A stretch of DNA of 23,854 nt from a virus, in IMG/VR virus record IMGVR_UViG_3300021960_000508, positions 1-23,854 of that record, one strand, 5' to 3'. How positions within the stretch are numbered: position 1 is the stretch's first letter; the number at the start of each line of letters is the position of its first letter. The notes beneath the pieces are model-generated. The model did no database searches and was not told where the DNA came from. It saw nothing but the letters and a program-made list of their open reading frames with translations. The position numbers were made by a program, and so were the translations under genes. Shown here in pieces: positions 4,851-15,359 of this stretch.

Positions 4851-5492
4851 ATGAACACCGAACCAACACAAGCAGCCAGCGAGCTGGCTAGAATACAGCG
4901 GGAGCTAAAAGCACCCAAAAATCAATACAACTCCTTCGGGAAGTATAAATACCGCGCCTGTGAAGACATCCTAGAGGGTGTCAAAAAGGTAAAAGGAGAT
5001 TGCTCCGTAGTCATTCAAGATGACATCCACTTTATTGAGGGTCGATTCTATGTGAAGGCCACGGCTGTCTTGCTTGCCCCGGATGGCAGCAGCGTTAAGT
5101 CCACCGCATTTGCGCGTGAGTCGCAGGACAAGAAGGGCATGGATGCAGCGCAGGTAACGGGGGCGACTAGCTCCTACGCACGCAAGTATGCACTCAATGG
5201 CCTGTTTGCTATTGATGACACCAAGGACGATGATGCCGAGGGAACCGGAGAGGACACCGTGGCGATCATTGAACCTAAGACCGCCAATCAAATCCGCAAG
5301 GACTTGGAAGAACTGGGCGCAGACATCGAAGGCTTTGAGAAATACATGGGTTGCACGATTGACGAAATCACAACCGACAAACTGGCCAAAGCTAACTCGG
5401 CCATCGCAGCCAAGCGCAAAAAGGCAGCAGCCGAACCTAAAAAGAGCGCAATCGACAAGCTCGCAGAAATGGCAGAGGAGGCAGACGCATGA
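4851..5492 (+). CDS. erf: ERF family single-strand annealing protein
   Basis: ERF proteins bind single-stranded DNA and anneal complementary strands in phage recombination. Residues 1-125 carry the ERF core: an N-terminal helix ELARIQRELK, KYKYRACEDILEGVK (31-45), and the signature DAAQVTGATSSYARKYALNG (98-117). An acidic linker (DDTKDDDAEGTGED) leads to a small helical domain (about 144-185), TANQIRKDLEELGADIEGFE, and a Lys-rich end. The length of 213 residues is normal. Neighbours are a YqaJ-type exonuclease overlapping by four bases and then an SSB, the classic set for exonuclease-driven annealing. No Shine-Dalgarno sequence is present; the leader is A/C-rich. Confidence 0.92.
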   Translation: MNTEPTQAASELARIQRELKAPKNQYNSFGKYKYRACEDILEGVKKVKGDCSVVIQDDIHFIEGRFYVKATAVLLAPDGSSVKSTAFARESQDKKGMDAAQVTGATSSYARKYALNGLFAIDDTKDDDAEGTGEDTVAIIEPKTANQIRKDLEELGADIEGFEKYMGCTIDEITTDKLAKANSAIAAKRKKAAAEPKKSAIDKLAEMAEEADA

Positions 5493-6319
5493 TTGCAACA
5501 GCACCAAGCGCAGAGCTGGAGAGCATCGACCACTTGCCTAAGTGTGTGTTCTACAACATGGAGCAGCGCAGCCCAGCCTGGTATGAAATCCGCAAGGGCG
5601 TGCTGACAGCATCCAAGGTGGGTGATTGGCTCGCAGAGCAGCCTGAGTGCCGCATGACTGTGGCAGAAATCAAGGAGGCTCTGGACGAGGAGGGTATCAG
5701 CTACAAGGGCAAGACCAAAAGGGATGACCTGCTTGAGCTTTTGCCAGAGGTGCGCCGCCACCTGTCTCTGACGCAATCCACAATGGATGCAACGGAGAAA
5801 GCGATCCTCAAGATTCTCGGCCAGCAATCCAGCGTCCAGCCTCCATACGAGTTCACCGTGGATATGAACGATGAACACCCACCAAGCAACATTGCTTTGT
5901 GGGCAATCTGGAATGGCCTCAAGCTGGAACCGGAGGCAACAGCAGCCTTTGAGTGGGAGACTGGGGAGAAACTTCAGCACGTAGGCTTTGCCAAAAGCAT
6001 TGAATGGGACGCTGGTTGCTCACCTGACGGGCTGGTAGCTGGTAAGCCGATTGGCTTTGAGGGCAAGGCTCCGCTACCACATACGCACCTCAAATACCTG
6101 TTTGATGGCAAGCTGCCTGATGACTACAAGATGCAGGTGCATTTCTCTATGGCTGTGACAGGAGCCGAAGCGTGGTGGTTCCAATCCTACTGCCCCGGTC
6201 TACCAACCTTCCGCACCCTTGTGGAGCGTGACGAAACCACCGAGCGCGTTGAGCGTGGGCTGGAGTCGTTTACCAACAAGCTGGCAGAAGCACAGGAGAA
6301 ACTCAAACAATTCAACTAA
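5489..6319 (+). CDS. YqaJ-type recombination exonuclease with SAP-like insert
   Basis: The protein belongs to the YqaJ/lambda-exonuclease fold (PD-(D/E)XK nucleases), which resects DNA ends to feed the annealing protein. It starts RSPAWYEIRKGVLTASKVG (27-45), followed by GLKLEPEATAAFEWETG (143-159), the metal site CSPDGL with Asp180, EGK with Glu191 and Lys193, and MQVHFSM (215-221) late. Between the first and second blocks lies TVAEIKEALDEEGISYKGKT (57-76) continuing to about 86, which reads as a SAP-like helix-extended-helix DNA-binding motif and is not part of the usual core. GAGGAGGC precedes the ATG, which overlaps the ERF stop. Confidence 0.9.
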   Translation: MIATAPSAELESIDHLPKCVFYNMEQRSPAWYEIRKGVLTASKVGDWLAEQPECRMTVAEIKEALDEEGISYKGKTKRDDLLELLPEVRRHLSLTQSTMDATEKAILKILGQQSSVQPPYEFTVDMNDEHPPSNIALWAIWNGLKLEPEATAAFEWETGEKLQHVGFAKSIEWDAGCSPDGLVAGKPIGFEGKAPLPHTHLKYLFDGKLPDDYKMQVHFSMAVTGAEAWWFQSYCPGLPTFRTLVERDETTERVERGLESFTNKLAEAQEKLKQFN

Positions 6320-6331
6320 ACCAAAATAACA

Positions 6332-6724
6332 ATGCCTAACGCAAACAAAGTAATCCTCATGGGCCACCTTACCCGTGACATCGAACTGAGACACACCGCC
6401 TCTGGAACCGTAGTCGGTAACGGTGGTATCTGTGTGAATAACATCAAGAAGGGTGGCGAAAAGCAGCCGTGCTTCGTGGACTTCACCTGCTTCGGTAAGA
6501 CTGCTGAAATCGCAGACAAATACCTGAGCAAAGGAAGTGCCGCCTACCTTGAAGGACACTTAGAAATGCAGGAATGGAATGACAAGAACACTGGAGCCAA
6601 GCGCACCAAGCACGCCATCATCGTCCAAAACCTGCAATTCGTGGGCGAGAAGAACGCCTCTGGTGGTGGTCAAGGGTCGGCATCGCATAGCGTGGCCGAG
6701 GACACTGATGAAATACCCTTCTGA
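6332..6724 (+). CDS. ssb: Single-stranded DNA-binding protein
   Basis: SSB coats single-stranded DNA during replication and recombination. The OB fold covers about residues 1-110: NKVILMGHLTRDIELRHTAS at the start, FVDFTCFGKTAEIADKYLSK in the middle, and AYLEGHLEMQEWNDKNTGAK near its end. A short Gly/Ser linker leads to the acidic tip DEIPF, the standard hook for partner proteins. At 130 residues it is shorter than bacterial SSB because the linker is short. It follows the exonuclease by 12 bases with an A-rich leader and no Shine-Dalgarno sequence. Confidence 0.95.
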   Translation: MPNANKVILMGHLTRDIELRHTASGTVVGNGGICVNNIKKGGEKQPCFVDFTCFGKTAEIADKYLSKGSAAYLEGHLEMQEWNDKNTGAKRTKHAIIVQNLQFVGEKNASGGGQGSASHSVAEDTDEIPF

Positions 6725-13219: not shown

Positions 13220-13687
13220 TTAGACTGTCAAGGATGCGCCCTTGCGGAACAGGTCGTCCACTTGTTCGCTGGTCAAGCCAACGATTTTGGAGATGGCTTC
13301 GATGGCGGTAGAACCGCGCTTAAACTCAGCGTTGTTTTCCCAAGCAGACTTGATGATGATCTTGACCGGGCCGTCCTCAAGTCCAGCAATAGCGGACTCA
13401 ACTTGTGCCAAATGTCCTTCCATTTCCAGTATGGCACGGGCTTGCCATGCGGTCATCGACTGCGGCACAGCGTTTTGCGCGGCTTCGTAGGCTGCGCGTT
13501 TTTCCGGAGACAAAGCAGCAACAAACTTTTCCTGGGTGGTCTTAAGTTCGCCTTCAAGAAGGAACAAGGGTTCTTCAGATGAGCTTACAGTAACGGCTTG
13601 CTCGTCTGTAATTTCAACAGAGCCGTCAGTTGCTGCATCTAGGACTTGGAAGATTCGACCCTGCGGGCCAACGATTGCATATTTCAT
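13220..13687 (-). CDS. Fibre-associated phage protein, 155 aa
   Basis: The start at 13687 (MKYAIVGPQGRIFQVLD) overlaps the sulfotransferase stop by ATGA; the frame is open further upstream, inside the sulfotransferase. After an N-terminal beta part come a helical region (FVAALSPEKRAAYEAAQNAV) and a C-terminal helical domain, TAWQARAILEMEGHLAQVES to about residue 95, then SAWENNAEFKRGSTAIEAIS and GLTSEQVDDLFRKGASLTV. I recall this layout from unknown proteins encoded next to tail fibre genes in other phages. It may be a fibre chaperone or small structural protein. Confidence 0.6.
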   Translation of the reverse strand: MKYAIVGPQGRIFQVLDAATDGSVEITDEQAVTVSSSEEPLFLLEGELKTTQEKFVAALSPEKRAAYEAAQNAVPQSMTAWQARAILEMEGHLAQVESAIAGLEDGPVKIIIKSAWENNAEFKRGSTAIEAISKIVGLTSEQVDDLFRKGASLTV

Positions 13688-14484
13688 AATGATGTGATCC
13701 AGTTGAATTTTTGCTGGAGGGTTTCGGAGAGTTGACGACCAAGTGTGTCGTGCCAATCAGCTTGCAAAGGTTTTACTTCGGCGTGAACAGCGTGGTCGCC
13801 ATACGGCCACCCAAGCTCATGCTCCTTGGTGTATTGCTCCACATTGGTGACATCATGCGTGAATGGTTCTTCGCCCAAGTATTGCCACACTTTGTTCATC
13901 GTTGATTGCGGGTCGGATGTGAGTTGTTCGGCGTGAACAAACATCACCTTATCCTTGTGGAGCCTCTGAAGCTCATACAAGCGTTGCACAGCAATACCAA
14001 CGGGTGCGCTGTCCAACCAGAACTGGCATCGAGCCTCCACTGTTTGAATCCGCCCAGTGTCCTGCTGGCTGACCTCAAGTTGAAACTCAGGGTGCTTTTG
14101 GAATTTCTTTTCCATGCTGGACAGAACTCCACGAATGTCTCGCACAGGAACCAGCAGCTTTGCATTGGGGAACAGCTTGAACAGAAGGTTCGCGCTGCCA
14201 ATCCAAGAGCGGCACTTGTCCACGACCACGGGCCTGTCCGTAATGTTTGTGAAGGCACTCATGATGCCACCTCGCATGAAGTCGCAGAACAGTTGCTCTC
14301 CTTGTTGTGGGTCTGGTATTGAGCGGAACTCGTCAGTCTTAAAGAATGCCTTGCCCAAATACATGACCTCATGCAAACCACTGGTAGCGGTAGCGTGGAC
14401 GCGAGGGTTCTGCGCCAGAAGGTTCTGGAGCAATGTCGAACAGGCGCGAGGAAGGCCAGAAGTATAATGGACAGTATGCGGCAT
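13684..14484 (-). CDS. Sulfotransferase
   Basis: Sulfotransferases move sulfate from PAPS to hydroxyl or amino groups. The 5'-phosphosulfate loop is SGLPRACSTLL (9-19), where family members have a PxxGST-like motif with Arg/Lys. The 3'-phosphate site is VPVRDIRGVLSSM (112-124), with Arg115 and a Ser at about 122-123. Asp/Lys at DKCRSW (89-94) lies between. The length, 266 residues, suits a single domain. It is made between the LRR fibre (two bases upstream) and a fibre-associated protein (ATGA overlap). Its acceptor may be a virion or host-surface glycan or protein; this is inference. Confidence 0.85.
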   Translation of the reverse strand: MPHTVHYTSGLPRACSTLLQNLLAQNPRVHATATSGLHEVMYLGKAFFKTDEFRSIPDPQQGEQLFCDFMRGGIMSAFTNITDRPVVVDKCRSWIGSANLLFKLFPNAKLLVPVRDIRGVLSSMEKKFQKHPEFQLEVSQQDTGRIQTVEARCQFWLDSAPVGIAVQRLYELQRLHKDKVMFVHAEQLTSDPQSTMNKVWQYLGEEPFTHDVTNVEQYTKEHELGWPYGDHAVHAEVKPLQADWHDTLGRQLSETLQQKFNWITSL

Positions 14485-14486
14485 TC

Positions 14487-15359
14487 TTATAGGTCTTTAA
14501 TCACAGTCACGGGTTGCCCACCGATGTTGTCAGGCCCAGCCGTCCAAGTGCTGTCAGAAGCCCTTGCGTGAATGGTTGTGATGCCACTAATGCCAATGAT
14601 ATTTGGCTGGTTGAAAATTGTTCTAGTGACATAACAATTCACATTGGTTAAATTTGTGCAAAGGGCAAATGCGCCAAAAGATATTGAAGTCACAGACGCA
14701 GGAATTGTAACCGAACCAGTTAACCCTGAACAGTTATAGAAAGCGTAACTTCCAATCGAAGTTACACTATCGGGCATACCAAGCTCTCCTGTGAAGCCAG
14801 AGCAGCTATGAAAAGCTCCGACACCAATGCTTGTGCAGGAGTCGGGGATAATCAGCGAACCAGTAAAGCTGGAATCAGTATAAAATGCGTAGTTACCAAT
14901 GCTTGTAATGGACTTCCCTAGAACCAGAGAGCCAGTTGCATTATTATTATAAAAGAACGCAAACCCTCCAATAGAAGTAACTGAATCAGGAATCACCAAA
15001 GACCCATAATCAGTGCTAATATCTTGAAACGCACCTGAGCCATAACCATCAGCGAGATTGCCAATAGTTGTTACTTTGCTGCCAATCTCAAAGCCAAGTA
15101 AGTCGTAACTTCCACTTAGACCCAAAGCAATCGCTTCAGTGTTTGCAAAGCTGCTGGGAATAGTATTAAGACCATAAGCATACAGTGACTTGTCAGACTT
15201 AACCAGCTTGGTCAACGTGGATGGGTCGCGTCCTGCGAGAGATGCGGCGGCTCCAGCATCCTCAGCCTCTAGGCGGGATTTGAGCGTGGTTTTGTTGCTT
15301 GCGCTCATAGCATTAGCCATGAACGAATCAACGTGGGCATCTACAGTAATATCTGGCAT
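14487..15359 (-). CDS. Leucine-rich repeat tail fibre / receptor-binding protein
   Basis: Residues 1-55 look like a fibre-base attachment region (MPDITVDAHVDSFMANAMSA). From residue 121 come five BspA-type (LRR_5) repeats of exactly 24 residues, each with a core like IPDSVTSIGxxAFxxC, e.g. LIIPDSCTSIGVGAFHSC (169-186). A short tail ends GPDNIGGQPVTVIKDL. LRR_5 domains bind proteins or glycans and are found in receptor-binding proteins of environmental phages. No signal peptide is present. It lies in the late region after the connector genes and before the sulfotransferase, where tail fibre genes usually are. Confidence 0.8.
   Translation of the reverse strand: MPDITVDAHVDSFMANAMSASNKTTLKSRLEAEDAGAAASLAGRDPSTLTKLVKSDKSLYAYGLNTIPSSFANTEAIALGLSGSYDLLGFEIGSKVTTIGNLADGYGSGAFQDISTDYGSLVIPDSVTSIGGFAFFYNNNATGSLVLGKSITSIGNYAFYTDSSFTGSLIIPDSCTSIGVGAFHSCSGFTGELGMPDSVTSIGSYAFYNCSGLTGSVTIPASVTSISFGAFALCTNLTNVNCYVTRTIFNQPNIIGISGITTIHARASDSTWTAGPDNIGGQPVTVIKDL
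14640..14999 (-). repeat. Five tandem 72-bp LRR repeats
   Basis: Repeat units start at residues 121, 145, 169, 193 and 217 of the fibre gene, so the DNA period is 72 bp without indels. Conserved codons encode the TSIG and AF positions; surface positions vary. Such arrays can expand, contract or shuffle by recombination. Confidence 0.75.

Follow-up and report, generated by a model that had tools for sequence, protein, structure and literature searches.

The DNA analysed here, a virus record from IMG/VR, is 23,854 bases long and is referred to throughout as the window. It encodes an ERF single-strand annealing protein, an exonuclease of the YqaJ/lambda type that harbors an inserted helix-extended-helix (HeH)-like module, and a single-strand DNA-binding protein (SSB), and these three genes form a phage two-component recombinase cassette (Table 1). 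No close relative of the exonuclease was found among the genome contigs searched. Elsewhere in the window, an ORF on the minus strand (14487-15359) contains repeats that, by eye, we take to resemble BspA-type leucine-rich repeats, and another on the same strand (13684-14484) is presumably, again by eye, a sulfotransferase, which would be unusual in a phage.

Table 1. Recombination genes of the window and the parts of the exonuclease gene, in window coordinates
Feature	Position	Strand	Basis
ERF single-strand annealing protein	4851..5492	+	PF04404, 122.3 bits; its last 4 bases overlap the exonuclease gene
YqaJ/lambda-type exonuclease with inserted HeH-like module	5489..6319	+	276 aa; PF09588, 54.4 bits (curated cut-off 22); predicted model superposes on LHK-Exo (Z 20.9) and lambda Exo (Z 19.8)
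Core block 1 (residues 24-50)	5558..5638	+	W31 and R35 on W24 and R28 of the lambda Exo 5'-phosphate pocket; phmmer alignment to 1avq; residue roles from the review PMC7496540
Whole inserted segment (residues 51-97, 47 residues)	5639..5779	+	Exceeds the corresponding loop of insert-free relatives by about 43 residues, as aligned with L145, L148 and others
HeH/SAP-like motif (residues 56-86)	5654..5746	+	PF12949 match; helices at 58-67 and 78-84 in the model
Core block 2 (residues 143-228)	5915..6172	+	E147, D180, E191 and K193 on lambda E85, D119, E129 and K131; phmmer and multiple alignment
Single-strand DNA-binding protein (SSB)	6332..6724	+	PF00436, 85.5 bits; downstream of the exonuclease

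The exonuclease belongs by profile to PF09588, and its core is carried on two conserved blocks, the first of which displays the pattern Q26..W31..R35..TAS42. For the comparison with lambda, the chain numbering of 1avq was taken as the lambda numbering plus 2, as inferred from the catalytic and pocket residues. Across 45 aligned rows, W31, E147, D180, E191 and K193 are invariant and R35 is nearly so. By sequence, the catalytic set, to which E129 belongs in lambda, is intact in the window exonuclease.

The original prediction had placed a SAP-like unit at about residues 56-86 (5655-5747), between the first two conserved blocks of the nuclease. Both the unit and its placement were recovered, with the profile span beginning one base earlier; the peptide concerned, TVAEIKEALDEEG...LLELL, occupies residues 57-85. 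The best profile match is to HeH/LEM (PF12949), which scores 27.7 bits (E 2.2e-6) on a 40-residue segment and 22.7 bits (E 8.2e-5) on the whole protein. As both scores lie under the curated cut-off of 28.9, the insert is called HeH-like here, without formal membership of the family. The SAP profile (PF02037) gives 16.7 bits on the segment against a cut-off of 23.9, which leaves the segment outside that family, and Ish1 also matches residues 56-86, more weakly than HeH. At E<=1 the HeH profile matches 10 of the 17 full-length insert-bearing family members, with 7 unmatched, and 7 of the 13 distinct insert segments, with 6 unmatched.

A hallmark of HeH and SAP units is a hydrophobic pattern combined with a basic residue ahead of helix 2. 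All 13 distinct inserts are hydrophobic at positions 54, 56, 61, 65 and 81, and 12 of them have a basic residue at 78, immediately ahead of helix 2; tested for both features, the inserts display the HeH pattern. Judged from the HeH matches across the family and from the phrog_1539 and PDB matches described next, the resemblance is more than chance. An Arc-like repressor family, phrog_1539, is matched near its C-terminal end by 12 of the 13 insert segments at E<=0.1, and the 19 PHROGs matched by inserts comprise 3 Arc-like repressors, 1 endonuclease VII, 1 tail protein and 14 families without a named function. When a profile built from the 13 inserts was run against PDB sequences, the top match of the 20 listed up to E 10 was FluMu gp35 (2OUT; E 8.1e-6). 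This protein shares the sequence pattern of the window insert, but the match lies near the end of its chain (residues 92-120 of 131) rather than inside a nuclease; we know of no DNA role for gp35.

The whole protein was modeled as an AlphaFold2 monomer from a 45-row alignment of the window protein and related loci, giving a mean pLDDT of 93.5. Within the insert, helices 58-67 and 78-84 are joined by an extended link, and the ten-residue blocks from 51 to 100 have pLDDT values of 94-97. A prediction from 9 rows, with block pLDDT of 31-49 over residues 51-130, was set aside, and the model depends on the 45-row alignment, since confidence rose only with that number of rows. VIA-align superposes the model on LHK-Exo (3syy) with an rmsd of 2.2 over 184 of 194 residues, and on lambda Exo (3sm4), placing the protein in the lambda Exo/LHK-Exo fold. 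The near-complete alignment of LHK-Exo implies, from the lengths, that the known enzymes are matched without an equivalent of the insert. The PDB structure matches listed for the model show no separate HeH entry, which is uninformative because nucleases fill the list, and a viral-structure search gave YqaJ-type nucleases and no further information about the insert. LHK-Exo (3SYY) and lambda exonuclease (1AVQ, 3SM4) have the nuclease fold and the catalytic and phosphate-pocket residues in common with the window protein, but instead of the HeH unit they have a short loop, which in lambda is the Arg45 loop. Structure prediction had been proposed as a check on the original prediction, and it depicts the insert as a separate helix-extended-helix unit and not as a normal part of the nuclease core.

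Comparison with homologues, the other proposed check, pointed the same way. The survey covered 182 loci with a YqaJ ORF, corresponding to 128 distinct proteins with the window included, and counted the residues in the alignment columns that correspond to window residues 50-98. The insert is missing from 104 of the 128, which have at most 9 residues at the loop; one protein has 15, and 23 have at least 38, of which 18 form the HeH group, 3 come from Gordonia and Arthrobacter phages and 2 from Vibrio phages. These proportions are distinct from natural frequencies, because similarity to the window or to its neighbors was the criterion by which loci were chosen. The survey added sequences to a fixed alignment, a procedure that can drop residues, and 8 rows lost at least 15, so that an unusual insert in those rows could escape the count. 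The absence of the module from many relatives indicates that it is dispensable for the basic reaction.

The nearest relatives of the window protein, L001 and L002 (70% identity), keep the module. A follow-up scan supplied L131-L147 as well as insert-free relatives, and a further scan added more of each kind; among them, L145 clusters with insert-bearing proteins yet runs straight through the site without an insert. HeH-bearing YqaJ proteins also occur in a group of genomes reached from a Verrucomicrobiales contig, at least in G252 (L104), G500 (L112) and, as a fragment, G739 (L270), the last of which encodes an insert-free YqaJ as well (L257). Any YqaJ match at all was obtained in 7/387, 15/386 and 15/260 genomes of that group, in overlapping sets. 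This distribution hints that the host of the window phage may belong to the Verrucomicrobiota. A distant blastn search (E<=1) with the insert DNA gave no match in 50,697 phage records, and HeH was present in none of 12 YqaJ proteins of isolate or named phages inspected among the matches listed (the best 40/171, 40/180, 12/175, 15/150 and 15/42 records). Among plasmids, 21 records matched, and the one inspected is without the insert. In open-access PMC, no paper was found that pairs a SAP domain with YqaJ, alkaline exonuclease or lambda exonuclease.

The history of the module was followed on a tree of 78 rows, which succeeded an earlier one of 76 and was built by a quick search with the insert columns left out and long rows included. 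The HeH rows fall together, but the insert-free L145, L148 and L153 lie among them. The presence or absence of HeH requires at least 4 changes on this tree, and all insert states together require 7; the hypothesis that the HeH rows form a clade of their own is rejected (p-AU 0.005), in a test run after the first tree had been seen. Taken together, the insert-free rows amid the HeH rows and the rejected clade imply either several losses of the module or more than one gain.

The module and the core also differ in how far they have diverged. Between the window and L001, the HeH segment is 94% identical and the core 68%. At the nucleotide level, identity over codons 52-82 and over codons 53-83 reaches 90.3%, the highest of 691 overlapping 31-codon windows across four shared genes, and the best such window clear of the insert reaches 81.7%. 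Among conserved codons, silent differences number 11/42 in the insert and 73/143 elsewhere in the gene (Fisher p 0.005), and the insert has an NG86 dN of 0.083 and dS of 0.656. The reverse pattern is found between L133 and L134, in which the core is 98% identical and HeH 58%. Here, 59/78 bases match at the gene start, 82/84 to the end of helix 1, only 34/81 aligned bases over the loop, helix 2 and linker, and 572/582 afterwards; by eye, both versions are still helix-extended-helix. Recombination within the module would be the simplest reading of these discordant identities. Strong constraint could alternatively account for the pattern between the window and L001, and a chimeric metagenome contig may lie behind L133.

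One suggestion made for the insert was that it holds the enzyme on its ERF partner, and the gene neighborhoods disfavor it. Of the 18 distinct HeH proteins, only the window enzyme and L001 have ERF upstream, whereas 10 follow a RecT-type gene (L131, L133, L134, L135, L136, L138, L144, L146, L147 and L112), with a small ORF between the two genes in L133, L135 and L112. Two are near a phrog_3657 gene. The remaining 4 are without a call: the contigs of L002 and L132 begin at the exonuclease, no annealase was recognized upstream of L104, and L221 was outside the neighbor survey. The RecT-type genes themselves differ, with those of L133 and L136 matching the Bet-like phrog_252 and those of L135 and L112 matching phrog_561; the L135 annealase scores 22.7 bits against a RecT Pfam cut-off of 24, yet 240.8 bits for phrog_561. 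Moreover, the HeH segment of L134 is identical to that of L135, yet the adjoining annealase genes differ and are alike in DNA only near both ends. The insert-free L145 likewise follows a RecT gene. The counts of RecT-type and ERF neighbors also speak against HeH as a marker of ERF-type systems, and this idea was discarded.

Two further observations concern the annealase position. In L137 (1838-2971) and L141 (1967-2989), a protein of phrog_3657, a family without a named function, occupies the annealase place before the exonuclease, and phrog_3657 is possibly an unrecognized annealase family. The exonucleases of L133, L134 and L135 are nearly identical, but the annealase genes ahead of them come from different families. 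High identity returns in short stretches flanking these annealase genes, which appear to have been swapped as cassettes.

HeH is not the only kind of segment found at this loop. The YqaJ proteins of Gordonia phages Lucky10 and Apricot and of Arthrobacter phage Hestia, which lie elsewhere in the tree, carry a small domain at the same loop as in the window, but there it is a zinc finger rather than HeH, matching PF24623 ('putative DNA-binding phage zinc finger') at 33.7 bits in Lucky10 and Apricot and 30.4 in Hestia, over a cut-off of 24. In Pseudomonas phage Medea1 and phage CBW1004C-Prop1, with an ERF family gene nearby, a segment of similar length gives no Pfam match over cut-off and is terminase-small-subunit-like, in contrast to the HeH of the window, through weak matches to terminase small subunit families (phrog_641, E 3e-4 and 6.9e-5). 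The Vibrio phage exonucleases (L009:1609-1806 and L010) carry about 45 additional residues at this loop, a segment named by neither Pfam nor PHROGs. In the 78-row alignment, 21 rows have at least 15 extra residues at this site, although at least 7 of these owe their selection to an apparent insert; at the sites that follow in rank, the numbers of such rows are 3, 2, 2, 2, 1 and 1, and two of those sites, in Gordonia and Vibrio rows, are probably alignment spill-over from the same loop.

The position of the insert offers a clue to its role. According to the review PMC7496540, Arg45 of lambda Exo reaches into the minor groove on the downstream side of the active site; DNA binding suffers most from Arg45Ala, which leaves activity nearly complete, and the central channel also includes Lys49 and Met53. 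The phmmer alignment of the window protein ends at E50, which aligns with lambda K43, so that Arg45, judged by residue number, coincides with the beginning of the insert. The HeH/SAP-like segment would take the place of the short Arg45-carrying loop and, should the enzyme form a ring trimer as lambda Exo does, the module would be found in three copies at the side where the duplex enters. There the module could add duplex contacts that help loading or track-keeping, and these might add to, or replace, the contact made by Arg45. We give a probability of about one half to the reading that the insert, an optional and exchangeable module, sits on the side of DNA entry and acts outside catalysis by steadying the enzyme on duplex DNA, in loading or in keeping to its track. 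Among the functions proposed originally, holding the DNA end would fit the position of the insert best.

The helix-extended-helix fold is often used for DNA binding, and the basic residue 78, together with the kinship to Arc-like repressor and endonuclease VII segments, would fit with a grip on DNA. The putative DNA-binding zinc finger and the terminase-small-subunit-like segment at the same loop, the concentration of long inserts at this one site and the low dN of the insert relative to dS are further points in its favor. The composition of the insert counts against such a grip. Acids are frequent at positions 60 (11/13), 66 (9/13) and 80 (10/13), and the net charge, which spans -8 to +2 over the 13 inserts, is -2 in the window and -8 in L104; this would be unusual for a strong DNA binder. 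The sub-threshold HeH scores, the kin that fall mostly in unnamed families and the best PDB match to gp35 also count against it. The same range of charge would suit a module that docks a protein (the annealase, SSB, a host factor or another subunit) instead of contacting DNA, an explanation that we regard as rather unlikely. SAP/LEM/HeH-type folds can bind proteins, and L133 differs from L134 both in half of its HeH and in the neighboring annealase. Furthermore, lambda Exo and Redbeta bind each other, but PMC7496540, which describes this, assigns the Redbeta contact to helix E of lambda Exo. With that, the spread of HeH proteins over ERF, RecT-type and phrog_3657 neighbors and the shared segment of L134 and L135 argue against the annealase as the docked protein, and docking to some other partner, such as a host factor, SSB or subunit, is the main rival to the DNA-steadying reading.

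The module might also be a passenger without a specific role, tolerated in a surface loop that permits insertions and retained or lost through drift. Its patchy presence, with repeated changes on the tree and the rejected HeH-only clade, and the several unrelated inserts at one site are what such a passenger would leave behind, but dN is low relative to dS within the insert, the hydrophobic and basic positions of HeH are kept between the window protein and proteins with 34-40% core identity, and the site corresponds to the DNA-contacting loop of lambda rather than to an inert one, all of which render this explanation improbable. Least probable by a wide measure is that the segment is ordinary YqaJ core that has diverged. 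The sub-threshold Pfam scores of the single protein and the low-confidence 9-row model are compatible with a diverged core, against which stand the existence of insert-free relatives, the confident separate helices of the 45-row model and the alignment of LHK-Exo over almost its full length.

Lambda Exo is both a recombineering tool and a standard example of a processive enzyme. The more interesting lead within this known enzyme family is the wider pattern, in which one loop accommodates several kinds of plug-in module. A tentative extension, which we consider doubtful as a whole, is that the DNA-entry loop of lambda-type exonucleases acts as a socket into which small binding modules (HeH, zinc finger, terminase-small-subunit-like and a fourth, unnamed kind) have been plugged repeatedly and swapped independently of the core and sometimes of the annealase. 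Each ring would then carry three replaceable copies for specificity or grip, perhaps diversified under pressure from hosts or rival phages. The natural series of enzymes with, without and with different modules at the residue presumed to keep lambda Exo aligned on DNA would permit a direct test of the role of this loop, and the modules themselves could serve as parts for tuning the loading or processivity of exonucleases.

A second extra stretch is found in the window at 5843-5896 (residues 119-136) and in relatives L131-L138, and resembles VDPDGPPPRNPA. It occurs in the closer HeH clade and is missing from L141, L144 and L145. This stretch directly precedes the position that, by numbering, matches Leu78, the hydrophobic wedge of lambda.
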